From contig CP119314.1 in NCBI GenBank assembly GCA_029202385.1, positions 250,501 through 314,500 of the forward strand: 64,000 nt of DNA, in the 5' to 3' direction. The notes under the pieces were generated by a model, which saw nothing but the letters and a program-made list of their open reading frames with translations, ran no database searches and had not been told where the DNA came from. The stretch is from Candidatus Sphingomonas phytovorans (GTDB taxonomy: Bacteria > Pseudomonadota > Alphaproteobacteria > Sphingomonadales > Sphingomonadaceae). Both the position numbers and the translations under genes were made by a program. This document shows, piece after piece, positions 4,233-63,093 of the stretch; within the stretch, counting starts at the first letter, position 1, and each line of letters opens with the position of its first letter.

Positions 4233-4895
4233 TCAACTCCCAATCTTCAATGCTCTCGTCCGGCTCACCCACCAGGCGAGCAGCGCGAGCAGCACATAGG
4301 CGACGAGGCCCAGGATTGCGAGCGAGGGCGGCGGCGGATCGACGATCGTGGCCGGCTCGGGCCCGAACCAGTTGAACGCCTGGAAGGCCGCCATCGCGAC
4401 GGCGAGCGTGGCGACCGGGATCCAGGGGCCCCGCGTGCGGGCTGTGAACCAGGCGAGGGCGCCAAAGGCCAGGATGAGTTCAAGCGGCATCTCGATCGCT
4501 GGATGGTTCCACAGGCCGAGCCCGAACGGCGGCGGTCCGCCCGCCAGTGTCAGGTCGGGCCGGTGGACCAACAGGTCGATCAGCCAGTGCGACAGAACCA
4601 CCGCGCCGCCGATCAGCGCCGCCGTGCGGTTCCGTCGCCACAGCCAGAGCAGCAGCGCGAAGCCCGCAGCCCAGCCGATCGCGCCGGCCAGGCTATGAGT
4701 CCAGGGCATGTCGTACAGGTCCATCGGGTTCATCGCCGTGATGCCGGGGACGAGCCGCATATGCTCGACGCCGAGCAGCACGAAGGAGAAGAAGGCGAGA
4801 TCGACCAGTTGGGCCGCGACGAACAGCGTGCCGAGCCGAGGTGCCCTTGGCGAGGCTGCCGCGATGAATGCCGTACTGTAGTGGCCGATAAACAT
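4233..4895 (-). CDS. Integral membrane protein (possible DUF457/YdjM-like)
   Basis: 220 residues from ATG 4895 (MFIGHYSTAF) with about six hydrophobic segments. Conserved-looking polar residues sit in or next to the helices: the His of GHYSTAF, the Asp of QLVD, the His of WTHSL and the SHWLIDLL segment. This pattern recalls the membrane-bound metal-dependent hydrolase-like family, but the assignment is tentative. It is upstream of and nearly touching the ArsC-like gene. A palindromic repeat lies 33 bp upstream of its start. Confidence 0.65.
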   Translation of the reverse strand: MFIGHYSTAFIAAASPRAPRLGTLFVAAQLVDLAFFSFVLLGVEHMRLVPGITAMNPMDLYDMPWTHSLAGAIGWAAGFALLLWLWRRNRTAALIGGAVVLSHWLIDLLVHRPDLTLAGGPPPFGLGLWNHPAIEMPLELILAFGALAWFTARTRGPWIPVATLAVAMAAFQAFNWFGPEPATIVDPPPPSLAILGLVAYVLLALLAWWVSRTRALKIGS

Positions 4896-4927
4896 GACGC
4901 GATCCCCTCGGGGTCGCATCCTACCAG

Positions 4928-4959
4928 CTTGTTCTCCCCGCGAAAGCGAGGATGACAAG
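4928..4959. repeat. REP-like palindromic element, copy A
   Basis: An imperfect inverted repeat of CTTGT-CTCC type arms around the centre CCGCGAAAGCG, followed by GGATGACAAG. The core is shared with a second copy at 8411-8437. It lies in the gap between two minus-strand genes. A G+C-rich tail (TTGGAGGATAGGGCAAGC at 5020-5037) also has a counterpart downstream of the second copy. Confidence 0.6.
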
Positions 4960-5056
4960 GGATAATTCTCGTGTTCGCCAGCGCGGAGTTAACTTTAGCG
5001 TACTGCGTTGACAACATTGTTGGAGGATAGGGCAAGCCTTCCAATTGCCGCGGTAT

Positions 5057-5971
5057 TCATGGCAGGCAGGGCTGATAGATGTCGGCCATCCCCTTGGGCT
5101 GGCCAGGGCGCGGCCGGGTGCTGGCATATGTCAGCACCCGGCTATCGCGGCTGAGCGAAGGCCCGAAGGTGAAGTCGCCGTCGTTGATCGACCGCGCGAG
5201 CGGTGTCGCCTCTCCCCATCCATCGCCGGCGCGCTGGCTGACATATATCGCACCGGTTCCGCCGCGGCTGGACCAGAAATATGCGCTACGACCATCGCTG
5301 CTCAGGGTGAAATCCCCTTCCGAACTCGGCGAGTTGATCGGCACTTGCAACGCTACGGGGGCATCGAATTCGCCATCGGCGCGTAATCTGGCGCCATAGA
5401 TGTCGAGCTTGCCCGGACCACCGGGGCGCGACGAATTGAAGTAGAGCGTGGTGCCGTGGAGCTCTGGTCCCAGTTCTTCACCGGGACTGCTGGCGGCGGC
5501 CAGATGTTCGGGTGCTCCCCATCCACCATTCGTTGTCCGCTCGACCCGCCAGATATCCCGATCCTTGCGGGCGGGCGATCGGCCGGGTGCGGGACGATCC
5601 GACGTGAAATAGAGCCACCGCCCGTCCGGCGTCAGCCACGGGTCCGTGTCCCGGTAGCGCGCATCTCCAAAGGCGATCTGCGCGGGAGCCGTCCAGCTAC
5701 CCTTACGCTTTTCCATGAAGAAGATGCGCGACCGCTCGAAATTGGCTTCCGATCGGGCAAATACCGTCAGGCGTCCGTCTTCGCTGACGCTGAGATTATA
5801 GTCATTTGCCGCGGTCGATACGATATTGGGCATGAAAGGGCCGGGTACGCATGGTGTTGATGCAGCGCTTGCCTTGCGATGCTGGTGGGGCGCCGCGTCG
5901 CTCATGCCTGTCGAACAGACTGCGAAGGCAAGCGCGGCCGATGCGATGACATAAAACCGAGGAGACATCAT
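5057..5971 (-). CDS. Exported PD40/TolB-like beta-propeller protein
   Basis: 304 residues. Residues 1-27 form a signal peptide (MSPRFYVIASAALAFAV, cleavage probably after SDAA). The rest contains PD40-type repeats with typical strands such as PWLTPDGRWLYFTSDRP, TLSSDGRSAYFWSSRGG and SLSRDSRVLTYASTRP, as in the TolB propeller. No catalytic domain is seen, so a periplasmic binding or scaffold role is likely. ATG 5971 directly abuts the stop of the NTF2-like gene upstream, so the two form one operon. That operon starts next to a BlaI-type operator, so BlaI control is plausible. Confidence 0.75.
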   Translation of the reverse strand: MMSPRFYVIASAALAFAVCSTGMSDAAPHQHRKASAASTPCVPGPFMPNIVSTAANDYNLSVSEDGRLTVFARSEANFERSRIFFMEKRKGSWTAPAQIAFGDARYRDTDPWLTPDGRWLYFTSDRPAPGRSPARKDRDIWRVERTTNGGWGAPEHLAAASSPGEELGPELHGTTLYFNSSRPGGPGKLDIYGARLRADGEFDAPVALQVPINSPSSEGDFTLSSDGRSAYFWSSRGGTGAIYVSQRAGDGWGEATPLARSINDGDFTFGPSLSRDSRVLTYASTRPRPGQPKGMADIYQPCLP

Positions 5972-6436
5972 TCATCGTCTCCCGGACGGCTGCTCCGCCC
6001 CTTGCGTCGGGCGGGGAATGGGGTGCCAAAGGGCGTTCACGATGACCCAGCGGTCGCCGAAGCGCCCCATGTGGAAATAGTCGACGAACCATGGTGTTTC
6101 GAGGCGTACCGAAGCCGTGTCGCGCGTCGTGTCGAGTATGCGGCACGAACGGCTCCATTGTTGGCGGGGAGTTCGCAAGGCGCCGCGCCGGGTCAGGTCG
6201 GTCAGTTCCTCGCGCGTCATCCGGTGTAAGCCGAGCCGCTCGTCGGGTGTTTCTCCAGCTATTGCCCGCTTGGCGAGGTCAGGGTGCAAAGACCGCGCCA
6301 CCCGCACCGGGTCGCCCTCCAATTGTCCGTCGATATAGTCCAGGCACGTAGCCTCGATCCGGGTGAGGGCTGCCGGATCGGCGGGCGGCACCGAATCCGC
6401 AACCAAGGCGGCGAATATGAGGACGGAAAGGGGCAT
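5972..6436 (-). CDS. Exported NTF2-like (lumazine-binding-type) protein
   Basis: 154 residues. The N-terminus MPLSVLIFAALVADSVPPA looks like a signal peptide. The remainder (ATCLDYIDGQLEGDPVRVARSLHPDLAKR and VDYFHMGRFGDRWVIVNALW) matches the SnoaL/putative lumazine-binding fold, a small alpha+beta cone often used for binding. No enzymatic residues can be assigned. It is the first gene of a leftward pair with the PD40 protein; the BlaI-type palindrome begins only 21 bp upstream of its ATG. Confidence 0.7.
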   Translation of the reverse strand: MPLSVLIFAALVADSVPPADPAALTRIEATCLDYIDGQLEGDPVRVARSLHPDLAKRAIAGETPDERLGLHRMTREELTDLTRRGALRTPRQQWSRSCRILDTTRDTASVRLETPWFVDYFHMGRFGDRWVIVNALWHPIPRPTQGAEQPSGRR

Positions 6437-6457
6437 ATGGGACCTCCAAAGCGGCTT

Positions 6458-6476
6458 ATACTATCATGTAGTATAT
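6458..6476. promoter_or_regulatory. BlaI/MecI-type operator between divergent genes
   Basis: A perfect 7-bp inverted repeat with a 5-bp spacer, TATACTATCATGTAGTATA, closely resembling the known TACTACA-TGTAGTA type of BlaI/MecI operator. It sits between a leftward operon (start 6436) and the rightward blaI-like gene (start 6612). The half site TGTAGTAT recurs at 6576-6583. The position suggests repression of the leftward genes and possibly autoregulation. Confidence 0.7.
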
Positions 6477-6611
6477 GTGCTATTCTGTAATTTCAATGTT
6501 GAAAAATCTGTGGCGAGGAGCGCGCGTTACGGCCGGAAAATGGCCCCGGTGTTGCCTTTACATCGCTTGTTATGCTGTAGTATCGGCGGCCGGAGATTGG
6601 ATCCACCGTCG

Positions 6612-7043
6612 ATGCGGCCAGAATCAAAGACAGAAGCCAGGCTTCCGGAAATTTCGCAGGCGGAGCACAATGTGCTGCGCGGTCTATGGCAGTTGAAGCG
6701 CGCTAGCCTGCGGGAGGTGCATGATGCCATCTCTGCGGAGACCGGATGGGCCTATACGACCACAAAGACGGTACTCGACCGGATGGCCGCCAAAAATCTG
6801 CTGAAGCGGGAAAAGGTCCACGGATTGTTCGTCTATTCCCCCGCGATCAGCAAGGCTGCGGGTATCGCACGCTTCGTACGCTATTTCGCCAGCCGTATCG
6901 TGGAACGCGATATGGGCGTCGTCTTGGGACTGTTCAGGGAATCGGAGGCACTCTCCCGCAAGGATGTCGAGGAACTGCGAGCTTTGATTTCGGAGTTGGA
7001 CAAGCAGGATGCGGCTGGCGCAGCGGGCGAAAAGAGCGCCTGA
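6612..7043 (+). CDS. BlaI/MecI/CopY-family repressor
   Basis: 143 residues from ATG 6612. A winged HTH (SQAEHNVLRGLWQLKRASLREVHDAIS region, residues about 13-39; TTTKTVLDRMAAKNLLKREKV, the recognition part) is followed by a dimerisation tail. This is the normal size for BlaI. It lies 2 bp before an M56 peptidase gene, the standard BlaI-BlaR1 arrangement, in which the membrane peptidase inactivates the repressor on a signal. The palindrome at 6458-6476 is its likely site. No beta-lactamase gene is adjacent, so the inducer may not be a beta-lactam. Confidence 0.9.
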   Translation: MRPESKTEARLPEISQAEHNVLRGLWQLKRASLREVHDAISAETGWAYTTTKTVLDRMAAKNLLKREKVHGLFVYSPAISKAAGIARFVRYFASRIVERDMGVVLGLFRESEALSRKDVEELRALISELDKQDAAGAAGEKSA

Positions 7044-7045
7044 TC

Positions 7046-8359
7046 ATGGCCGATATCGCAAAGGCTCTGATCGAATGGCTCCTGTGGCAGTCCCTCTATG
7101 CCACTGTTGCGGCGGCCGTCATATTCGGTTTGATCGGCGCACTGCGTATCCGCGACCCCCGATGGCTGATGGGGCTCTGGGCAATCGTCCTGCTGCGCTT
7201 TCTGCTGCCGACCGACTTTGCCATGCCTTGGGGGATTGGGTCGATCTGGGACCAATTCGGTCCGGCCGTCCTCGATCAGCGCGCGGATGGGGGCGAAATC
7301 GCGGCATCGGTGCCGTCGGTCGAACGATTGGGCGTAGGCGGTGGGCCGGTCGCATCCGGCAGTCTGGCGATCTTCCTTACCCTGATCTGGGCGGGGGGCG
7401 CCCTCGGGCTGTTCTTCATCGTCCTGCGCCAGCAGCTTAAGACTAGCCGGCTGCTCCGCCGCGCTGCGCCGGCAGGACAAGAGGTGCGGGATCGGTTGCG
7501 CCACTGGCAGCGCAAGTTCGACATTGACCGCCCTGTCCACATGGTGGTCGGTGATGCTAAGCTGTTGCCGTTCACGACGGGCCTCCTTTCCCCGGCCATA
7601 TTCATGTCGCGGCAGCATCTGGAGACGATCGGACGCGACGAACTCGACGCTGTCCTGGTGCATGAACTTGCCCATATCCGCTCATGGGATGTCGCCTGGC
7701 TCTACATCGAACGCCTCGTACAGTTGCTGTTCTTTTTCCACCCCGTGGCATGGTGGGCCACCCGCCAGCTGTCCCAGGCCCGCGAACGCTGCTGCGACAT
7801 TCAGGCCGTCAATATGTCGAACATAAAGGCGACACTATATTGGGAATCAGTGCTGAATCTCCTGCAGGTGCCGGCCAATAGCTCGCCCCGGCTGGCCATT
7901 GCCAGTTCGCTCGGGAGACCGGCTCGGTCGCTAAGGGATCGTATCGACGCAGTCCGTTTTCATTCGCATCCCCACACCCGCTCGCGGCTTGCTGTCTATG
8001 CCGGCATAATGGGGCTGAGCACTTTCCTTTTGCCGATGGCGCCGATCGCTGGAAGGGCAGCCATCCCCCTGCCAACCGCGAAGAACGATCTGGCGCAGTC
8101 GAAACAATCTGCACTGCGGACAGCCAATGATCGGGTCCTCCGTGCTCGTGAGATATTGGATCGATACAACCGCGGTGATTTCGGTGACCGCGTCATTACC
8201 CGGCCCAATGGCGAAGCGATTTGCGCGCCGGACAGCTGGCCGGCGGGCGTGACATGCAAGGGTGTCTTCTCGCGAAAGGATATCGGCCAACTCGTCTGGG
8301 AGGCCGAGGACAGTCTCGTCAAAGCTGAGCGGACCGCTGCGCTACTGGCGAATCCCTAG
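7046..8359 (+). CDS. M56-family (BlaR1-like) membrane metallopeptidase
   Basis: 437 residues from ATG 7046. N-terminal helices (about residues 9-50 and 105-130) precede the zinc motif HELAH near residue 206. Further hydrophobic segments and the conserved FFFHPVAWWATRQL and ERCCDIQAV elements follow. A last membrane helix leads to a short C-terminal periplasmic part with no penicillin-binding domain, unlike classical BlaR1; the sensed signal is therefore unknown. It is transcribed with the BlaI-like repressor upstream. Confidence 0.85.
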   Translation: MADIAKALIEWLLWQSLYATVAAAVIFGLIGALRIRDPRWLMGLWAIVLLRFLLPTDFAMPWGIGSIWDQFGPAVLDQRADGGEIAASVPSVERLGVGGGPVASGSLAIFLTLIWAGGALGLFFIVLRQQLKTSRLLRRAAPAGQEVRDRLRHWQRKFDIDRPVHMVVGDAKLLPFTTGLLSPAIFMSRQHLETIGRDELDAVLVHELAHIRSWDVAWLYIERLVQLLFFFHPVAWWATRQLSQARERCCDIQAVNMSNIKATLYWESVLNLLQVPANSSPRLAIASSLGRPARSLRDRIDAVRFHSHPHTRSRLAVYAGIMGLSTFLLPMAPIAGRAAIPLPTAKNDLAQSKQSALRTANDRVLRAREILDRYNRGDFGDRVITRPNGEAICAPDSWPAGVTCKGVFSRKDIGQLVWEAEDSLVKAERTAALLANP

Positions 8360-8410
8360 TGGATCGGATGCTAAGGCTTAAAATCGTAGTTTCTGACGAG
8401 TCATAGTCTG

Positions 8411-8437
8411 GTGTTCCCGCGAAAACGGGGATGACAC
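8411..8437. repeat. REP-like palindromic element, copy B
   Basis: GTGTTCCCGCGAAAACGGGG followed by ATGACAC: an inverted repeat whose core (CCGCGAAA, then GGATGACA) matches the element at 4928-4959. It is located just after the M56 gene. A related tail, GGTTGGAGGAAGGGCAAGC, occurs at 8596-8614. Confidence 0.6.
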
Positions 8438-8538
8438 CCGGTGATTTTGCCTGCGCGCCAAGTCGCTGCTTCTCCGGCGAAGGCCCCGCTGGGGATGGCC
8501 GTGACTTGGGTTGCGTGCTGTTATTTCAGACGCCCCAA

Positions 8539-8566
8539 CTCTGCCCCGGCTTTCACCAGGGCAGAG
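8539..8566. terminator. Possible bidirectional terminator
   Basis: Eight-base arms CTCTGCCC and GGGCAGAG enclose a 12-base loop in the gap between the convergent M56 and accC genes. There is no strong T-run on either side, so termination is plausible but not proven. Confidence 0.4.
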
Positions 8567-8626
8567 TGAGCTTCGGGGTAATGCGTTGGTGGAATGGTTG
8601 GAGGAAGGGCAAGCTTCGGAGTCCGA

Positions 8627-9979
8627 TCAGCCCTCCTGTCGCGCCAGCCACTCCTCCAGCCATTTGATCGTGTAATTTCCCGCCTGGAAATCCGGGTCGT
8701 CGAGCAATGCCTGATGCAGCGGGATGGTCGTCTTCATCCCTTCGATCACATATTCCTCCAGCGCCCGGCGCAGGCGGCGCAGCGCGCCCTGGCGAGTGGT
8801 GCCGTAGACGATCAGCTTCGCGATCATCGAGTCGTAATAAGGCGGTACGCGATAGCCCGCGTAGAGCCCGCTATCGACCCGCACGTTCATGCCACCCGGT
8901 GCGTGATACTGCTTCACCAGCCCCGGCGACGGCGCGAAGGTGCGCGGGTCCTCGGCATTGATGCGGCACTCGATCGCATGGCCGCGAAACACCACGTCCT
9001 GCTGGCGCAGGGTCAGCGGATGGCCCTCGGCGATTCGAATCTGCTCGCGGACGAGATCCAGGCCGGTGATCATTTCGGTCACCGGATGCTCGACCTGAAG
9101 CCGGGTGTTCATCTCGATGAAGTAGAACTCGCCGTCTTCCCACAGGAACTCGATCGTGCCGGCGCCACGATAGCCCATGTCGGACATCGCCTTGGCGACG
9201 ATCCCGCCCATGCGCTCGCGGTCCTCGGCGCCGAGCACGGGGGAAGGGGCCTCCTCGAGCACCTTCTGGTGGCGCCGCTGCAACGAACAGTCGCGCTCGC
9301 CGAGATGGATCGCATTGCCCTTGCCGTCGCCGAACACCTGGAATTCGATGTGGCGCGGGTTGCCGAGATATTTCTCCATATAGACGGTCGCGTCGCCGAA
9401 TGCCGCCTTGGCCTCGCTGCCCGCCTGCATCATCAGCGTTTCGAGCTGGTCCTCGGACGTGCACACCTTCATGCCGCGTCCGCCGCCGCCCGATGCCGCC
9501 TTGATGATCACCGGATAGCCGATCTTCCGCGCGATCGCCTTGGCTTCGGTGATGTCGCTGATCGCGCCGTCCGAACCGGGGACGAGCGGCAGGCCGAGCG
9601 CGCCGGCGGTGCGCTTCGCCTCCACCTTGTCGCCCATGGTGACGATATGTTCTGGCTTCGGCCCGACGAAGATGATGCCGTGCGCCTCGACGATTTCGGC
9701 GAACCGGGCATTCTCGGACAGGAAGCCGTAACCGGGATGGATCGCATCGGCATGGCTGATCTCGGCCGCCGAAATGATGTTGGCGATGTTGAGATAGCTC
9801 TCGCCAGCCGGCGGCGGGCCGATGCAGATCGCCTCATCGGCGAGTCGGACATGCATCGCGTCGGCATCGGCGGTTGAGTGCACCGCGACTGTCTTGATCC
9901 CCATCTCATGGCACGCGCGATGGATGCGCAGCGCTATTTCGCCGCGATTGGCGATCAGGAGTTTCTTGATTTCAGCCAT
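8627..9979 (-). CDS. accC: Acetyl-CoA carboxylase biotin carboxylase subunit
   Basis: 450 residues, the usual length. The N-terminal [18 protein letters not shown] is the biotin carboxylase signature, followed by an ATP-grasp domain with the glycine-rich loop [13 protein letters not shown] and the active-site stretch [14 protein letters not shown]. It carries out ATP-dependent carboxylation of biotin on AccB, the first step of malonyl-CoA formation for fatty acid synthesis. It follows accB by 6 bp on the same strand, with aroQ further upstream, an operon order common in Proteobacteria. Confidence 0.97.
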
Positions 9980-9985
9980 TTAGGC

Positions 9986-10459
9986 TTACTCGACAACCAC
10001 GAGGGGCTGGTCGAATTCGACCGGCTGTCCGCTCTCGACCAGGATCGCCTTCACCGTCCCGGCGCTGGGCGCGAGGATCGGGTTCATCACCTTCATCGCC
10101 TCGACGATCAGCAGCGTGTCCCCCGCTGCGACTGTCTTCCCGACGCTGATGAACGATGCCGCGCCGGGCTCCGGCGAGAGATAGGCGGTGCCGACCATCG
10201 GCGACTTTACCGCGTTCGCGCTGGCCACCGGCGCTGCCGCCTCGACCGGCGTGGCGGCAGCCGCCACCGGCACTGCGACGGGCGCAGGTGCATAATGCAC
10301 CGCAGGTGCCGCGGCGGCCGCCTTGCGCGCGATTCGGATACGACGCCCGCCATCCTCGACCTCGATCTCGGTCAGCTGCGTTTCGTCAAGCATCTGTGCG
10401 AGCTGGCGAACCAGTTCGACATCGATCCGCATCGGATCGGAATTACTATCTTCGGCCAT
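9986..10459 (-). CDS. accB: Biotin carboxyl carrier protein of acetyl-CoA carboxylase
   Basis: 157 residues from ATG 10459. An N-terminal helical segment ([20 protein letters not shown]) is joined by an Ala/Pro-rich linker (residues about 47-85) to a C-terminal biotinyl domain. The biotinylation motif EAMKVMN places the modified Lys at about residue 123. It carries carboxybiotin between AccC and the carboxyltransferase. Reading from an upstream in-frame start at 10495 would add 12 residues not typical of the family. Confidence 0.96.
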
Positions 10460-10511
10460 GCGACCCCTGTTCTCCCTTATTGGGCCAAAGCCCATTTAAT
10501 GGGGCGTCCTG

Positions 10512-10946
10512 TCAGAGACGAGCGGCGGCTTCAAGCGCAAGCAGGTAGGAAAGCGCCCCGAAGCCAGCGATGGTTCCCCTTGCGGCGCGTCCTACCCAGC
10601 TCTCGTGCCGGAAGTCCTCGCGCTTGTGCGGATTGGATAAATGTACTTCGATCACCGGTGTCTTGATCGATTTGATCGCGTCGTGGAGTGCGAGCGACGT
10701 GTGGGTATAGGCGGCTGCATTGAGGATCACCGCCCGCGCGCCACTGGCCTGCGCTTCGTGCAGCCAGTCGACCAGGTGCCCCTCGTGATTCGACTGGCGC
10801 ATGTCGATCTTCAGGTCGAGCTCCCGCGCGCGATCCTCCAGCAGCCCGGCGATGTCGTCGAGCGTGTCGCTGCCGTAGATTTCCGGCTCGCGCAGGCCGA
10901 GCAGGTTCATGTTCGGACCGTTCAGGACGAAGATCGTGTCGGCCAA
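10512..10946 (-). CDS. aroQ: 3-dehydroquinate dehydratase, type II
   Basis: 144 residues, typical for the dodecameric type II enzyme of the shikimate pathway. Conserved elements: [20 protein letters not shown] near the start (with the catalytic Tyr), [27 protein letters not shown] and [18 protein letters not shown] (seen here as [18 protein letters not shown]). It lies upstream of accB with a 52-bp gap and is probably co-transcribed with accBC. Confidence 0.96.
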
Positions 10947-11085
10947 GGATAAGCCTTTCGGTTGCGGGCGGGGTTCCGCGGCTTATATCGCGGGCTGCCT
11001 CTTTAGCCGTTCGTGCCTCGTGAAGTCGAGACAGGGCGCGGGGAGGTTTCTCGACGTCGCGCGAAGCGACCGGCTAGGGAGAGCT

Positions 11086-12084
11086 ATGCATACCGATCAC
11101 ACCGTCTCGATCCGCGTCAACGGCGAGCATCGCCGCGTCAGCGCCGGCCTCAGTCTTGCCCAACTCGCCGCCGATCTCGGCCTCGTGCCGGAAAAGGTCG
11201 CGGTGGAGCGCAATCTCGAAGTGGTGCCGCGCTCGACTCTCGGCCAGGTGCTGGTCGAGGATGGCGATGAGCTTGAGATCGTGCATTTCGTTGGCGGTGG
11301 TGACGTGGCGCCGGCACTCGATACCTGGACGGTGGCGGGCCGCACCTTCCGCTCGCGCCTCATCGTCGGCACCGGCAAATACAAGGATTTTGCCCAGAAC
11401 GCTGCCGCACTGGAGGCCTCCGGGGCCGAGATCGTCACGGTTGCGGTGCGCCGGGTGAACGTATCCGATCCCACTGCGCCGATGCTGACCGACTTCATCG
11501 ATCCGAAGAAGGTTACCTATCTGCCCAATACTGCCGGGTGTTTCGATGCCGAATCCGCGATCCGCACCCTGCGGCTGGCGCGCGAGGCGGGCGGCTGGGA
11601 TCTGGTGAAGCTTGAAGTGCTGGGCGAGGCGAAGACGCTTTATCCAGATATGGTCGAGACGTTGCGCGCAACGGAAGTACTGGCCAAGGAAGGTTTCCTC
11701 CCAATGGTCTATTGCGTTGACGATCCGATCGCGGCGAAGCGGCTGGAGAATGCTGGGGCGGTGGCGATCATGCCGCTCGGCGCGCCGATCGGTTCGGGCC
11801 TCGGCATCCAGAATCAGGTCACGATTCGCCTGATCGTCGAGGGTGCGAGCGTGCCTGTATTGGTCGACGCGGGCGTCGGCACTGCATCCGACGCGGCGGC
11901 GGCGATGGAGCTTGGCTGCGACGGCGTGCTGATGAACACGGCCATCGCCGAGGCGAAGGACCCGATCCTGATGGCGGCGGCGATGAAGGCCGGGGTCGAG
12001 GCGGGCCGTCTCGCCTATCTCGCGGGCCGAATGGGCAAGCGCCGTTATGCCGATCCGTCGAGCCCGCTGGCCGGGCTGATCTGA
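11086..12084 (+). CDS. thiG: ThiS-ThiG fusion: sulfur carrier protein / thiazole synthase
   Basis: 332 residues from ATG 11086, preceded by GGGAGAG. Residues 1-72 are a ThiS ubiquitin-like domain ([12 protein letters not shown]) ending in Gly-Gly-Gly at 70-72. From about residue 80 runs a complete ThiG TIM barrel ([33 protein letters not shown] with the Schiff-base Lys, [15 protein letters not shown]). ThiS normally needs a free C-terminal Gly-Gly that becomes a thiocarboxylate; here it is internal. Such fusions are known in annotation of some Proteobacteria. No TPP riboswitch is visible upstream. The stop overlaps the next gene's start. Confidence 0.93.
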
Positions 12085-12857
12085 TGAAGACGGTGCGGTT
12101 GGGGCTGATGATGCTTGGCGCGACCGCACTGGCATCGTGCGACGGGCCGAAGGTGACCTATGATAAAACCACGACCGTACCGGAGATGGTGTCTGCACCG
12201 ATAACGTTGAAGGCTGGCGACGGTGTCGAGATTTTCGGACGCACCTACGCCGCGACTAGGCCCAAGGCGGTGGTCCTGCTGTTTCATCAGGCCGGCTCGA
12301 GCAAGGATGAATACACCGAGATTGCGCCGCGGTTGCGTGATGCCGGCTATTCCGCCATAGCGATCGACCAGCGGTCGGGTGGGAGCCTCTATGGCGATAA
12401 CGAGACCGTCGCGCACCTCGGCAAGAGTAACGACTATCTCGACGCGAAGCAGGATCTCCAGGCAGCGCTCGACTTCGCGAGCCGGATGAAGCTCCCGGTG
12501 ATTGTCTGGGGCAGCAGCTACTCCTCCTCGCTGGTATTCCCGCTCGCTGTCGAAAATCCGGGGAAGATCAAGGCAATCCTGGCCTTCTCTCCCGGGGAGT
12601 ATTTTCCCGACGAGACGCTCGTGAAGACCGCTGCCGCGAAGGTCCATGTGCCGGTGTTCGTCACCTCGGCCAGCGACCCGAAGGAGATCGCCGAGGCGAA
12701 GGCGGTCGTCGCTGCAGTTCCCGGCGGACGGGCCGAGCAATATGTGCCGGCGATCGGCTTCCATGGCTCGTCGACCTTGATCGCTGCGAAGGATCCCAAG
12801 GGTGCCGAAGCGAACTGGAGCGCGGTGATGGCCTTTCTAAGGAAGGTCACGCCCTAA
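12084..12857 (+). CDS. Alpha/beta-hydrolase lipoprotein
   Basis: 257 residues. The N-terminus ends in the lipobox LASC, so it is predicted to be a lipoprotein. The alpha/beta-hydrolase core shows LLFHQAGSS near the oxyanion position, a nucleophile elbow GSSYS, an acid SASD and a late His in GFHGSS. The substrate is unknown. ATG 12084 overlaps the thiG stop in a TGATG junction, so it is coupled to thiamine biosynthesis expression though a functional link is not evident. Its 3' end overlaps the convergent methyltransferase gene by 4 bp. Confidence 0.8.
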   Translation: MKTVRLGLMMLGATALASCDGPKVTYDKTTTVPEMVSAPITLKAGDGVEIFGRTYAATRPKAVVLLFHQAGSSKDEYTEIAPRLRDAGYSAIAIDQRSGGSLYGDNETVAHLGKSNDYLDAKQDLQAALDFASRMKLPVIVWGSSYSSSLVFPLAVENPGKIKAILAFSPGEYFPDETLVKTAAAKVHVPVFVTSASDPKEIAEAKAVVAAVPGGRAEQYVPAIGFHGSSTLIAAKDPKGAEANWSAVMAFLRKVTP

Positions 12858-58188: not shown

Positions 58189-58264
58189 GGGGCCGTAGCT
58201 CAGCTGGGAGAGCGCTGCAATGGCATTGCAGAGGTCAGGGGTTCGATCCCCCTCGGCTCCACCA
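58189..58264 (+). tRNA. tRNA-Ala(GGC)
   Basis: GGGGCCG acceptor pairs with CGGCTCC before ACCA. D arm GCTCAGCTGGGAGAGC, anticodon stem CTGCA/TGCAG with loop ATGGCAT giving anticodon GGC, and T arm AGGGGTTCGATCCCCCT. CCA is encoded. A small CAATCTC/GAGATTG hairpin follows directly (58263-58281). Confidence 0.96.
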
Positions 58265-58333: not shown

Positions 58334-59584
58334 TTACTTCGGCTCGCGCGGGAATCGCCGTTGGCGGTCGAGATGGACGCGCAGGCGATTGGTCCGCGTC
58401 ATTGAGCGGCGGATACCATCCTTGTTGATCATCCAGGAAAGAAGCACGGCGCTCTTGCCGCGCGATATCGCACGAAAGCGAACTACATAGGATCGCAGGT
58501 CGCCCCAGAACCCCTGATCGGGCCGGCCATATCGAGTTCGCACTTCGAGTCTCGGCGGCACAAGTCCTCTCAGCAATGTTCCGCAGCGCACGCGCCATCC
58601 GGATTCGCCTGCCAGCGCCTGGCCTAGCCGGGCGCCGACAATGGTAGCGGATCCGGAATAGAGGCCCAGCGATGCCAGTCCTTCGGGCAGTAGCGCGGTC
58701 GTGGCTGGATCGGCGGCACCGTCGAGGAGATGCTGCGTGGGCACGCCGAGTGTTTGCGTGACCAGATGAAGCGTGAGTCGAACCGTATCGGTCAGCGCCC
58801 ATGCTTCGGCGCGCGTGTCGATGATCCTCCAGTCTAGCGGCAACGCGGGATGGTCGAGCAGCTCGGCGATATCCCACAGGCTTGTCAGGGGCGCTTCGAA
58901 GAGATGGTGCTGCAGGTGCAGGCAGAGATATAGAAATAAATCCTCCGGCGCCATCATCCGGGCGCCCGGGGGGAGCGCATCATGAGCCAGGCTGCGCGAC
59001 CAGATTCCGGCTATGTCGATCAGGGCGCCATGCCTGTCGCCCGCCAGTCGCCAATGGAGCTCGAGCGGAAGCTGGCTCGGGTTCGGCGTCGTATAGATAA
59101 GGTGGTGTTGCCAATCGGCTGACCGCATGGCGGCATCCGGTACGGCCGCCGCGTTGAAGCCGAGCGTGACGAGACTGGCATGATAGGCCATCGCGTCCTC
59201 GTCCTTCACCAGGAAGTCCACGTCGCCCATCTGACGATGCCCGAGATTGCCATACAGGCGATCGGCAAGGTCGATGCCCTTCAGCAGCAGCATCGGGCGC
59301 CCGGTCGCGGCAATGGCTTCCGCCACCAGGCTGCGCGCCTGCAACGTCCTTGCCGCCACCGCCATGCCATGGGCACGCAACCGCGCGGCAAATGGTGCCG
59401 GCGGCTGGAGGCGGGCGCGACGTAACCGGCGAGCGAGCAACGAGAGACCGGCGCCTCGCTCGACCAGTGCGAACAGGTCGGGCCAATCTGCGTCGGTCAG
59501 CCCTGCAAGCCGCCGATCGCCTTCCGAATCCCAGCGCAGACAGCGAAGCGCTGCCCCCGGCATGGCCATATCCTTCTCCGACAC
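58334..59584 (-). CDS. Nucleotidyltransferase-family protein (PF14907-like) of the RiPP locus
   Basis: 416 residues; starts GTG 59584, with in-frame ATG at 59569 and 59563 as alternatives. PMLLLKGIDLADRLYGNLGH and RQMGDVDFLVKDEDAMAYH form the nucleotidyltransferase signature (Lys-Gly loop and Asp-x-Asp). The remainder, LPLELHWRLAGDRHG and LFLYLCLHLQHHLFEAPLTS, matches proteins often found with lasso-peptide genes having an HPr-kinase-like partner. It may adenylylate or otherwise modify a peptide; this is inference. Last gene of the minus-strand cluster. Confidence 0.82.
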   Translation of the reverse strand: MSEKDMAMPGAALRCLRWDSEGDRRLAGLTDADWPDLFALVERGAGLSLLARRLRRARLQPPAPFAARLRAHGMAVAARTLQARSLVAEAIAATGRPMLLLKGIDLADRLYGNLGHRQMGDVDFLVKDEDAMAYHASLVTLGFNAAAVPDAAMRSADWQHHLIYTTPNPSQLPLELHWRLAGDRHGALIDIAGIWSRSLAHDALPPGARMMAPEDLFLYLCLHLQHHLFEAPLTSLWDIAELLDHPALPLDWRIIDTRAEAWALTDTVRLTLHLVTQTLGVPTQHLLDGAADPATTALLPEGLASLGLYSGSATIVGARLGQALAGESGWRVRCGTLLRGLVPPRLEVRTRYGRPDQGFWGDLRSYVVRFRAISRGKSAVLLSWMINKDGIRRSMTRTNRLRVHLDRQRRFPREPK

Positions 59585-59594
59585 GAAGATGGAT

Positions 59595-59891
59595 TCAGGC
59601 GGCGATACGTATCAGGGATTGGTCGGCCAGCTCGTGCAGGAAGGCGGTGACATCCTCCGCGATCTGATCGGCACCGGCGCGATACCGTCGCGCGAGGGTG
59701 TCGCAGAGACCGCTGACGGTCGTCGGGGTCGCGATCCTTTCCCAGATCTCGCGGCCGATGTGGTCGAGTCCGATGTAGCGGCCCGTCGCGATGTTGAGGA
59801 TGACGAGGTCATCGTCAACGCCGGTTGCCGGCAGGGACGAATCGCGGACGACGACCGTGTCCAGGCCAATCGGCCGGTATTGCTGTTCCAC
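59595..59891 (-). CDS. PqqD-family RiPP recognition protein (B1/RRE)
   Basis: 98 residues from GTG 59891 (GAGAAGG upstream). DDDLVILNIATGRYIGLDHIG and the following EIWERIATPTTVSGLCDTLA helix-turn-helix match PqqD/RRE domains, which bind leader peptides of RiPP precursors and deliver them to the processing enzymes. It lies between the kinase-like and nucleotidyltransferase genes, 115 bp after the former. Confidence 0.88.
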   Translation of the reverse strand: MEQQYRPIGLDTVVVRDSSLPATGVDDDLVILNIATGRYIGLDHIGREIWERIATPTTVSGLCDTLARRYRAGADQIAEDVTAFLHELADQSLIRIAA

Positions 59892-60006: not shown

Positions 60007-60894
60007 TCAATCAGCCATGATCGCCGCCAGGACCCTGTCCATCGTCCAGTCCGTATCGGGGCGGGTGATGCGCAGCATCTCGACGCTCTGCAGCGCCCGC
60101 GACACGAGCATGGCGCGAGCCGCGATCGCCTCGACCAGATAGGGGCCGTAGACGCTGTGCATCAGCAGAGGCAGCTTCGCGCGGCCCGTCACCCGCTCGA
60201 TCCGCACGGCCGCCACCAGCCCGCGCTCGAGATGAACGATCCGACGGAGCCGCCGCGGCGGCCGGACCGGCTCGACAAACGCCGGCACTGCCATCTTCAT
60301 CCGGTGCCACGCGTTGCGCGCCAGTCCCCGGCTGTCGAGCGCCAGGGCATCCGAGGCCTCTTCGAACAGGTGGACGTGTCGTGCGCCGGCGGGAACCTCG
60401 ATGATTTCCGTGCGATCAAGGCTCAAGGCGCTGACGTCGTCGGTGTGCAGCGGCCAGCCGAGACGTGTCATCGCAGCGGCGGTGGTCGATTTCCCCGCCC
60501 CGGAATCACCGCAGATCAGCACCACTCCATCCGGAGAGACCACGCCTGATGCGTGCAGCACCAGCAGATCGCGCTGGCGCAGCAAAGCGGCCAGCATTGG
60601 GTTGAGCAGCACGTGCCGGAACAACGCCTCGTCGCATTGCGGTCCGCGCTGGAACAGGATGCGGTTGCCACGTTCTGCGAGGAATTGCCCGGCACCAGGC
60701 CCGGCACGCATCAGATAGGCATTCGGTGAAGCTTCGTGAGTCGCGTCGCGCAGGCGGGCATCATCGAGCGCGGGCGGCACATGGCCCTCGCATATCATGA
60801 CGTCGGGGATCGCTCCGGGGCTGGCGGCAGCGAGTTCGTCGCACGCGAAGGGCAGGGAGAGAACCAGCCCATGGGCAAGGTGAAGATGAGACAT
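60007..60894 (-). CDS. HPr-kinase-related protein of the RiPP locus
   Basis: 295 residues. A P-loop LICGDSGAGKSTTAAAM at about residues 127-143 within an HprK-like C-terminal fold, preceded by LLVLHASGVVSPDGV and followed by WPLHTDDVSAL. In paeninodin-type lasso clusters the related kinase phosphorylates a Ser of the precursor. Here the candidate core has Ser5 and Ser15. Gap to the cyclase gene upstream is 23 bp. Confidence 0.86.
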   Translation of the reverse strand: MSHLHLAHGLVLSLPFACDELAAASPGAIPDVMICEGHVPPALDDARLRDATHEASPNAYLMRAGPGAGQFLAERGNRILFQRGPQCDEALFRHVLLNPMLAALLRQRDLLVLHASGVVSPDGVVLICGDSGAGKSTTAAAMTRLGWPLHTDDVSALSLDRTEIIEVPAGARHVHLFEEASDALALDSRGLARNAWHRMKMAVPAFVEPVRPPRRLRRIVHLERGLVAAVRIERVTGRAKLPLLMHSVYGPYLVEAIAARAMLVSRALQSVEMLRITRPDTDWTMDRVLAAIMAD

Positions 60895-60917: not shown

Positions 60918-62741
60918 TCAGTAACGCGTGCCGAAACCGTTGACGAACAGGCCCGCCATCAGGCCGCGCGTCAGGACGGTGCCCGCGAGGTTCAGTGCCT
61001 GGCCGCTATCCTCGACCTGAATCTGCTGCCAGACACGGCGCATCCGCGCCACATCGACATATTCGGCCCCCGGGCCGCGTGCCACCTCGGCCAACGCCTC
61101 TTCCACGTCGCCGAAGAATTGTCGCAGCCGCGGGACGAGGTCGCCGGACTGGCGGCCGATTGATCGGTTGAGACGGACCTCGTCCGGAAGCCTTCCCTTC
61201 ATCGCTTCGCGCACCAGCCACCGTTCGACGCCGGTCTGAGGATCGACGTAGAGAGAGTCGGGGATCGACAGACAGAATTCGAGCAGCCGCGGGTCGGCTG
61301 TAGGGTCGGTGATCGAGATTCCCGTCGCGGCGCCGACCTCGGCATAGAGAGCGCCCACCTTTAGCGCGCCCGGGCGAATGAACCGGAGCCGCTGCTCGCG
61401 GCAGCGCCGATAAGGCCCTTCGGCGCGATCGTCGCGCCAGCGCTCGCCGAGCCGGATCCGATGCGCGAAATCGGTCCGTATCGCGGAGCTCGGATAGTCG
61501 GGACGTGCGCGCAGGCCGCGATAGAGACGTTCCATCGGCCAGGGCAGCATGCGACGCAGCCTGAGCTTCGCCATTTCCGCCAGCCCGTCACGCTCGATCT
61601 GGCGCCAAAGCGGCAGCGACGTCGGATCGCCGTCCCACGAGATGCCTCCATTGCCCATCTGGCCGAGCAGCAATAGGCGGTTGCCGTCGCGCGCTGCGGT
61701 CCGGAACAGGTCCAGCAGCCAGAAAAAGCCGGGCGCGGCGTGCTCAGGCTCGCGCGTGATCGCCAGCATCTCGCGGATCGCGCCAATCGGCGAGACGTTC
61801 GCCGCGTCGATCCGGGTAAGGTCGATCGTTCCGCCGGCCCGCGCGGTGGCCGATGCCAGCGGATACTCGTCGCCGATGCCGCGGCCGACATAAGCGCGTG
61901 GATCATGGACCGGTGTCGAGACATAGGCGGAGAGCCGCCTTCCGTCTTCGGCCAGCATCGGAGCGGCGGTGACGGCGACCGAGCCTGAATCGAGCCCGCC
62001 ACTCAGCGTTGCCGCAACGCCGCCCTCTGACGGCAGGCGATCGCGCACTGCCTGGTCGAACAGTTCGCGAAATCGAACGACATAGTCCTCGCGCCGCGGA
62101 AGCCGCGTATCTGCCACGTCCTCCAGTCGCCAATAACAGTGCTTGTCGAACCGGTCCGGCGTCACGCGCAGGGAATGCGCCGGCGGCAGCCGCGAGATCG
62201 AGGCATGCGCGGTACGCTCGCCATGATAGGCGAACCAGGACACGAGCGTCTGGGCGACATAGAGCTCGTCCATCGCCACCGGGGCGAGATCGAGCGCAAG
62301 CAGGTCTTCCCGTGACGACGCGAAGGCGAAAATGCCTGGCGATGCATGATGATAAAGGGCGGTGTTGCCGAACGGATCGCGCGCCAGCGACAAAGTGCGG
62401 GTCGCCGGATTCCAGCCGACGATGCGCCAGTCGCCGTGGATCCGTTTATATGCTTGCTCGCCCCACTGCGCGAATGCTTCGCGCAGCAACTCGGCATCGC
62501 TCGGAAGACTGCATGCGAGACCGAGTTCGCTGCCAAGTTCACGACGGTTATGGACGGTTCCGTCGCCGAGGATCGTCAGTGGATAGCGGGCGCGGGAGCG
62601 GGGCGGTGCCGGGCCCCAGAGCATCGCTGTCCCGTCCATATAGACAGGCGCGCCAAGTCGCGCGCGACCGATCGCTTCGAGGCGGGAACAGATGGCGGGA
62701 TCGGTCGCGGTGCGGAGGAAGAAACCGAAAAGCCGTGTCAT
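60918..62741 (-). CDS. Asparagine-synthetase-like lasso cyclase (C protein)
   Basis: 607 residues. The N-terminal part has the glutaminase-like fold (ARDPFGNTALYHHASPGIFA) but starts MTRLFG, with no Cys at position 2, so no glutaminase activity. The synthetase domain has the ATP-pyrophosphatase loop ATLSGGLDSGSVAV at about residues 244-257. This Cys-less form is what lasso-peptide cyclases (McjC-like) show: they adenylate the ring Asp/Glu and close the macrolactam on residue 1. First gene of the minus-strand cluster, divergent from the candidate precursor. Confidence 0.88.
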   Translation of the reverse strand: MTRLFGFFLRTATDPAICSRLEAIGRARLGAPVYMDGTAMLWGPAPPRSRARYPLTILGDGTVHNRRELGSELGLACSLPSDAELLREAFAQWGEQAYKRIHGDWRIVGWNPATRTLSLARDPFGNTALYHHASPGIFAFASSREDLLALDLAPVAMDELYVAQTLVSWFAYHGERTAHASISRLPPAHSLRVTPDRFDKHCYWRLEDVADTRLPRREDYVVRFRELFDQAVRDRLPSEGGVAATLSGGLDSGSVAVTAAPMLAEDGRRLSAYVSTPVHDPRAYVGRGIGDEYPLASATARAGGTIDLTRIDAANVSPIGAIREMLAITREPEHAAPGFFWLLDLFRTAARDGNRLLLLGQMGNGGISWDGDPTSLPLWRQIERDGLAEMAKLRLRRMLPWPMERLYRGLRARPDYPSSAIRTDFAHRIRLGERWRDDRAEGPYRRCREQRLRFIRPGALKVGALYAEVGAATGISITDPTADPRLLEFCLSIPDSLYVDPQTGVERWLVREAMKGRLPDEVRLNRSIGRQSGDLVPRLRQFFGDVEEALAEVARGPGAEYVDVARMRRVWQQIQVEDSGQALNLAGTVLTRGLMAGLFVNGFGTRY

Positions 62742-62934: not shown

Positions 62935-63093
62935 ATGGCCACCGTCTGGACTGATGATGAAACCGCGGAGGGTGCGCAGTGCGAGTGGCATCGCCCAACT
63001 CTCACCACCTCCGTGATCGAGGAGATCACGCTCGGCAAGCTTGGCTCGCAATTCGACGGCCCGGCCCAGCCGGCTTCGTTTGATGGCGAGTAA
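62935..63093 (+). CDS. Candidate lasso-peptide precursor (52 aa)
   Basis: ATG 62935 is preceded by AAGGGA. The leader contains EWHRPTL, matching the W/Y-x-x-P-x-L motif bound by PqqD/RRE proteins, and ends ITL, with Thr at -2 of the predicted cleavage. The 19-residue core would be GKLGSQFDGPAQPASFDGE: Gly1 and Asp8 allow an eight-residue macrolactam ring, leaving an 11-residue tail. The leader EW-x-x-PT arrangement recalls paeninodin. It faces away from the biosynthetic genes on the opposite strand. The peptide has no homologue I can name. Confidence 0.72.
   Translation: MATVWTDDETAEGAQCEWHRPTLTTSVIEEITLGKLGSQFDGPAQPASFDGE

Follow-up and report, generated by a model that had tools for sequence, protein, structure and literature searches.

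A conserved putative lasso-peptide precursor pairs with a kinase-bearing cluster that lacks a local leader peptidase in sphingomonads

In the stretch of DNA that we analysed (64,000 nucleotides, here called the window), a 52-residue reading frame at 62935..63093 on the plus strand is confirmed by sequence comparison as a real, conserved precursor gene that pairs with the gene cluster beside it. We consider it probable that the gene encodes the dedicated precursor for a pathway of the phosphorylated-lasso type, in an alphaproteobacterial branch of the paeninodin and Bsf kind. The product is most likely a phosphorylated macrolactam closed between Gly1 and Asp8, and probably a lasso, where both the threading and the modification are inferred. 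Taken together, the comparisons point to an alphaproteobacterial relative of paeninodin and Bsf with no local leader peptidase in three sphingomonad clusters and no C-terminal Ser in any member seen.

The 52-residue translation, MATVWTDDETAEGAQCEWHRPTLTTSVIEEITL followed by GKLGSQFDGPAQPASFDGE, ends at a stop codon at 63091-63093, with AAGGGAAA immediately 5′ of the ATG, and alternative in-frame starts upstream would give longer forms of 98 residues (from 62797) and 87 residues. A sequence-only reading of this DNA had proposed the frame together with its leader marks, a Gly at core position 1 and an Asp at position 8, and the frame and motifs are found as it described them. From alignment A3 (see below) we predict a 33-residue leader at 62935..63033 (plus strand) that ends in ...ITL and carries W18-x-x-P21-x-L23 and Thr32 at −2. 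The remaining 19 residues, GKLGSQFDGPAQPASFDGE, form the predicted core. Its ring segment GKLGSQFD, core residues 1–8, is encoded at 63034..63057 (plus strand), and Gly4, Ser5 and Asp8 of this segment are invariant in all six aligned rows as well as in two further precursors, G1227 and P0003; the predicted tail GPAQPASFDGE is encoded at 63058..63090 (plus strand). The peptide therefore has what is expected of a lasso-class precursor, namely a leader motif (WxxP, with Thr at −2), a small residue 1 (Gly) and an Asp or Glu at 7–9 (Asp8), and its gene is divergent from a row of cyclase, kinase, PqqD and nucleotidyltransferase genes.

By motif alone the case for a precursor is modest to weak. In 40 simulated 64-kb sequences, the general motif (leader, Thr at −2, residue 1 and acidic residue 8 in a short frame) had a mean of 0.175 occurrences per sequence and appeared at least once in 6 of the 40, against one occurrence in the window; a clade-specific motif, derived from the family itself, also occurs once in the window and appeared in none of the simulations. 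That a chance frame merely resembles a lasso precursor is nevertheless exceedingly improbable, and we discard this explanation because motif and position are conserved (alignment A3 and a profile search of six genomes) beside cyclases that in three lineages are only 39–64% identical to that of the window, in addition to Sphingomonas sp. QA11 at 97%. With the A3 profile, the cluster loci of four genomes matched at E 5.2e-21 or better, and no match elsewhere was better than 0.033. The same plan recurs beside the relatives' cyclases and the profile has no comparable match elsewhere in the six genomes, which upholds the proposed pairing of precursor and cluster. A single-sequence search of 5.8 billion proteins returned nothing beyond the precursor itself, a version of it with an earlier start, and P0003, which is 96% identical and lies on a 45-kb contig.

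The family comprises eight distinct precursors: one each from the window and QA11, two each from Flavisphingomonas formosensis and Thalassospira lucentensis, P0003, and a candidate in genome G1227. Alignment A3 contains six rows (the window, QA11 and the two pairs), in all of which W18, P21, T32, L33, G37, S38 and D41 are invariant, while L23 is Met in one row; the family plan is W-x-x-P ... T-L-[G/A/S]-x-x-G-S-x-x-D, to which P0003 also conforms. Asp8 is kept in all eight members, in line with the conservation in related loci that the sequence-only reading had called for, but its Gly1 is a feature of the window core rather than of the family, since residue 1 is Gly, Ala or Ser across the eight. 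The QA11 precursor is 88% identical to that of the window and adjoins a cyclase gene. Two copies stand in tandem beside the cyclase in F. formosensis, one of them with a three-base insertion that adds a Leu after the Thr and places the Thr at −3, and T. lucentensis likewise has two copies beside its cyclase. The G1227 candidate (MSEY...EWRSPTVMKIDLARTLAGSGSNPD, at 11911-12060 of locus L050) fits by eye and by position; its profile score is low, 12.7 bits, and it is absent from the A3 matches at E 1 or below in the six-genome search.

On sequence grounds the precursors form a new and rare family, unrecognised by NCBIfam models: seven members were scanned (P0003 was outside the scan) and none matched any model at E 1 or below, whereas a Priestia paeninodin control scored 57.7 bits against NF033524, above its cut-off of 27. 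By titles and abstract openings, the open-licence literature gave no account of this precursor family or of lasso clusters lacking the leader peptidase B2. The distribution of the clade is patchy. It was found in 1 of 29 genomes of the family to which the Thalassospira genome belongs and, at high score, in 2 of 397 genomes of the window's family, one of which is the window's own (with up to three candidates scored per genome); in G1227's family, 2 of 55 genomes gave a match at E 1e-80, and only G1227 falls inside the clade by tree. Plasmid searches with the cyclase and with the kinase returned seven records each, every one below 60% identity. Outside the clade, the precursor profile matched best, at E 0.033, to a WxxP peptide ending in Ser in genome G289 (L068, 1480-1629), about 200 bases from a PqqD gene.

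Four neighbours on the opposite strand had been described from the sequence, and domain matches identify each of them as such. The gene at 60918..62741 (minus strand) encodes a lasso-type macrolactam cyclase of the asparagine-synthetase family, recognised by PF00733/PF13537, by its motifs SGGLDS and GNxxxSW and by its place in the tree; its best NCBIfam match, the lasso cyclase model NF033535, reaches 210 bits, under the 525-bit cut-off, and an annotated Priestia cyclase likewise falls under that cut-off. It had been called Cys-less, which is right for the N-terminal nucleophile (the protein begins MTRLFG) but not for the whole chain, which has Cys at 18, 77, 202, 447 and 490. The HPr-kinase-like RiPP kinase, at 60007..60894 (minus strand), matches PF07475 weakly at 21.5 bits (cut-off 33.3) and TIGR04352 at 33.8 bits (cut-off 200), and its residues H114, G129, G132, G134, K135, S136, D152 and D153 make up an intact H-G-G-G-K-S-D-D motif at the spacing described for BsfK in PMC10368454. 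A PqqD-like RRE, or B1, protein is encoded at 59595..59891 (minus strand; PF05402 66.6 bits; best match NF033536 lasso_PqqD_Bac, 60.5 bits, cut-off 80), so that the RRE expected of a lasso cluster is present, and the row ends with a nucleotidyltransferase at 58334..59584 (minus strand; NTP_transf_5, PF14907, 142 bits). A tRNA-Ala gene lies at 58189-58264, directly beside the end of the cluster, and tRNA genes are a common site for acquired DNA.

The nearest relatives found for the window cyclase are those of QA11 (97% identity), F. formosensis (64%), G1227 (41%) and T. lucentensis (39%), and in a 20-row tree these four and that of the window form one group with support of 100/100. This clade joins two Bacillota cyclases at 97/97, one of which adjoins an annotated paeninodin-family precursor; G172 forms a long branch inside the paeninodin-side group with weak support (83/73). 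A first tree had been given 28 rows, of which the program left out G023 and G359. The 20-row tree drops G023, G359, G338, G087, G289b and G388 (badly extracted, or with a short or doubtful frame) as well as two long-branched rows (L005 of the window's own genome and C24 of F. formosensis), and the clade of interest is identical in both trees. The link to paeninodin that had been drawn from family knowledge is thus supported by cyclase ancestry but does not extend to the precursor, which lies outside the NF033524 model and has no C-terminal Ser, nor to a local B2.

The arrangement of the cluster is kept to different degrees among the relatives. QA11 has the same cyclase, kinase, RRE and nucleotidyltransferase genes as the window. 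The Thalassospira row contains the precursors, cyclase, two HPr-like kinases, a sulfotransferase, RRE, B2 and nucleotidyltransferase, and the G1227 row is like it, except that its nucleotidyltransferase-like ORF is encoded on the opposite strand, past the precursor. In F. formosensis, cyclase, kinase and RRE are followed by a luciferase-like gene, and no nucleotidyltransferase was found in 19 kb around the cluster; the expectation that the same four genes would recur beside the precursor elsewhere thus holds for QA11 and the Thalassospira rows and fails for F. formosensis in this one gene. On the far side of the precursor in the window's genome lie a TetR-like gene and then a TonB-dependent receptor, an esterase-like gene, an amidase and an ABC exporter (the last four at 8826-15922 of L003, own genome C1:306000-322000). 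Receptors and exporters can accompany lasso clusters. We leave these genes out of the cluster, since the homology to QA11 stops short of them. There is no ABC transporter in the gene row itself, and the nearest one seen is separated from the precursor by about 6.5 kb and four other genes.

The leader peptidase B2 that is usual in a lasso cluster is absent from that of the window. A PF13471 search of the window's genome placed its matches at 2.41 and 4.99 Mb alone, none of them within 10 kb of the cyclase. Four reference B2 proteins were also compared with the ORFs of L003 (the 16 kb surrounding the cluster), L006 and L024, again with no match, and on these searches we reject a B2 concealed near the cluster. 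B2 is absent from three of the five clade clusters (the window, QA11 and F. formosensis); that of Thalassospira passes curated cut-offs, and the G1227 row holds a B2 relative. Among 17 cyclase places (15 from the search of the window's family plus Thalassospira and QA11), PF13471 occurs within 10 kb in nine and not in eight; of the eight, six do have a PqqD inside that distance, and three of the six belong to the genome of the window.

Leader cleavage is probably supplied in trans by a B2 from elsewhere in the genome. PF13471 is present somewhere in 13 of the 13 genomes given to the cyclase-place search; it is also present in 187 of 397 genomes of the family, so a B2 elsewhere supports sharing only weakly, and we reject its presence as proof. 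Reading of the ORFs gave one clear discrete B2, with no RRE part, in each of three genomes, those of the window, QA11 and F. formosensis. In the window's genome this gene, at 4.99 Mb in L004, adjoins an HPr-like kinase, a sulfotransferase and a PqqD in the same order as in Thalassospira. The PqqD beside the candidate trans B2 is 27% identical to that of the window cluster, and the corresponding pair in F. formosensis is 21% identical, which argues against easy sharing. Mining that requires adjacent cyclase and B2 genes may miss clusters without a local B2, and pseudomycoidin reportedly forms without leader and leader peptidase, to go by the title of work by Zyubko in 2019.

The usual phosphorylation site is also missing from the peptide. 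The C-terminal Ser is the target of paeninodin-type kinases according to reviews (PMC9266682, PMC8498205), and it is present in none of the eight clade precursors as against eight of nine precursor candidates in other cyclase clusters, where the nine were hand-chosen from a WxxP/YxxP list that also holds spurious frames. Of the Ser and Thr residues in the core, Ser5 alone is common to all eight; Ser15, in the tail of the window precursor, is replaced by Ala in P0003 and by Val in QA11. BsfA ends in Asp, and BsfK phosphorylates Ser3 of the ring (PMC10368454). Since the C-terminal Ser is missing, Ser5 is the only invariant core Ser or Thr and BsfK modifies a ring Ser, Ser5 is our best guess for the kinase target and a likely one, although its conservation could instead serve folding or cyclisation.

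From these genes we infer the following pathway, in which each catalytic step is conditional. The PqqD/RRE protein would bind the WxxP leader, and the HPr-like kinase would phosphorylate the core, most likely at ring Ser5. A B2 peptidase from elsewhere in the genome would then cut after Thr-Leu, whereupon the cyclase would link the freed N-terminus to Asp8 with the use of ATP. This would close a ring of 8 residues and leave 11 residues as a tail, which could thread, and the phosphate may be decorated by the nucleotidyltransferase. The predicted macrolactam of the window would have [M+H]+ 1889.866, or 1969.833 when it carries one phosphate; the values predicted for QA11 are 1959.945 and 2039.911, and that for the 8-residue core of G1227 is 686.274. 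The evidence against this reading consists of the absence of a local B2, the divergent PqqDs, the tailless core of G1227, the copy with Thr at −3 and the lack of a transporter in the row.

With the paeninodin-type systems of Bacillota (PadeA/NF033524), the window shares the WxxP leader, the cyclase grouping at 97/97 and a discrete RRE, and the kinase of the Priestia paeninodin control is HPr-like with the same motif as the window kinase. It differs in being alphaproteobacterial, in having an 8-residue ring and no C-terminal Ser, and in having neither B2 nor transporter in the row. The paeninodin ring has nine residues, as does that of the Priestia control by our count. In spite of the leader and the related cyclase, straight paeninodin membership is ruled out by the NF033524 model, which matched none of seven family precursors, together with the missing C-terminal Ser. 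A nucleotidyltransferase, as in the window cluster, is also reported for pseudomycoidin. The Bsf pathway of Bradymonas sediminis (BsfA/BsfK), likened here by description, has in common with the window a Gly1-Asp8 ring, a kinase with the same H-G-G-G-K-S-D-D motif, a nucleotidyltransferase and the lack of a C-terminal Ser, and phosphorylation of a ring Ser has been demonstrated in it (PMC10368454). Bsf itself has Ile at −2, a YxxPxL leader, Ser3 as target and both B2 and an ABC transporter in its cluster (same source). The combination of Ile or Val at −2 with Ser or Thr at core position 3 is not found in the window, which has Thr at −2 and Leu3, and Ser3 occurs only in G1227. SyanA/SyanK of Sphingobium yanoikuyae, again likened by description, belongs to a kinase-bearing lasso cluster of a sphingomonad, but SyanA is polyphosphorylated on a C-terminal Ser and SyanB2 is present (PMC9266682 and PMC10368454). 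The systems for linear polyphosphorylated peptides (LPP) have an RRE, an HPr-like kinase that acts on a core Ser (S3) and an NTP transferase, as described in PMC13381572. They differ from the window in having no cyclase, a signal-peptidase-like protease and a YxxP leader (same text); the window cluster does have its cyclase. That text also restricts paeninodins to Bacillota. If the pathway works, it would represent a paeninodin-like branch outside Bacillota, with a shared peptidase and with a phosphorylation position additional to those already reported, the C-terminal Ser and Ser3 of the ring. What makes the cluster of interest is that the usual leader-cutting protease is absent from it and the usual phosphorylation site is absent from its peptide.

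The ring and tail of the precursor have not diverged alike. Over the 52 codons, the window and QA11 differ at 14 nucleotides, three in the leader, none in the ring and 11 in the 11-codon tail. In the 7 kb compared, the two share one homologous block (96.1% over 6,364 bases) that ends about 260 bases past the stop codon, and identity per 40 bases drops from 0.90–0.97 upstream to 0.57–0.82 in the 3′ flank, starting from the same point as the tail. Because the flank diverges from that point too, a recombination boundary accounts for the pattern as well as selection does. A reading that we regard as unlikely is that these are small unthreaded macrolactams, with G/A/S1-Asp8 rings phosphorylated at Ser5 and a dispensable tail, in which threading is absent or incidental. 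The predicted G1227 core AGSGSNPD has eight residues and stops at Asp8 with no tail, too short to thread, so threading is not general in the family; tails range from 0 to 11 residues, and that of the window diverges from QA11 about as the 3′ flank does, with the ring unchanged. G1227 is, however, a single case identified from position and motif at a low score, the other precursors have tails of 6–11 residues, and the cyclase groups with one from an annotated lasso cluster. Somewhat in the same vein, we tentatively suggest, as a rather unlikely proposal, that the ring alone (x-x-x-G-S-x-x-D, phosphorylated at Ser5) could be the functional unit, with a tail free to vary or vanish and no need of a lasso, and that one sphingomonad peptidase could serve several clusters whose own B2 was lost. 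With its 8-residue core, G1227 offers a way to test if cyclases of this kind require a tail.

The cluster could also be decaying: the sphingomonad branch would have lost B2 and the transporter, and the pathway would have ceased to make a product. The absence of B2 from three of five clusters, the failure to find a nucleotidyltransferase near the F. formosensis cluster and the lack of a transporter in the row would fit, but the remaining frames are open, catalytic motifs are kept between lineages whose cyclases are 64% identical, and F. formosensis has two precursor copies in a family with conserved leader and ring; we think decay decidedly improbable. Very unlikely, in our view, is a product that keeps its leader, in which, for want of B2, the cyclase would bond a side chain to Asp8 or the kinase would modify the uncleaved peptide, giving a linear or side-chain-bridged phosphopeptide. 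Lys2 is present in five of eight cores, and linear kinase RiPPs (LPP) are known in Bacillota (PMC13381572); on the other hand, Lys2 is absent from the Thalassospira and G1227 cores, two clade clusters retain B2, and LPP clusters have no cyclase whereas that of the window does. A phosphorylated G1-D8 macrolactam from a cleaved precursor is the reading we prefer.

Several other loci of the window's genome carry related genes. At L005 (own genome C1:2399000-2418000), a separate benenodin-family lasso cluster occupies 8928-9056 and 9111-9728, where the frame of an RRE-like stretch is not that of the B2 peptidase part, so the gene may be split or frameshifted. A third cluster, at 7765-13525 of L026 (C1:3767000-3785000), has a cyclase, a PqqD, a kinase-like protein and a PF14907 nucleotidyltransferase; no B2 was found nearby and no convincing WxxP precursor. 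The second PqqD/cyclase/HPr-kinase cluster without a nearby B2 lies in L025 (C1:4590000-4608000), at 7161-7397 and 7633-10937; beside it are a candidate WxxP precursor whose last residue is Ser and a radical-SAM/B12-binding gene. L004 (C1:4982000-5001000) contains, at 4432-12278, cyclase-like, tail-collar-like and GNAT-like genes together with B2, PqqD, sulfotransferase and kinase genes and a precursor candidate at 6382-6567, and a similar mix of genes, with annotated tail fiber genes, is present on an Azospirillum plasmid.
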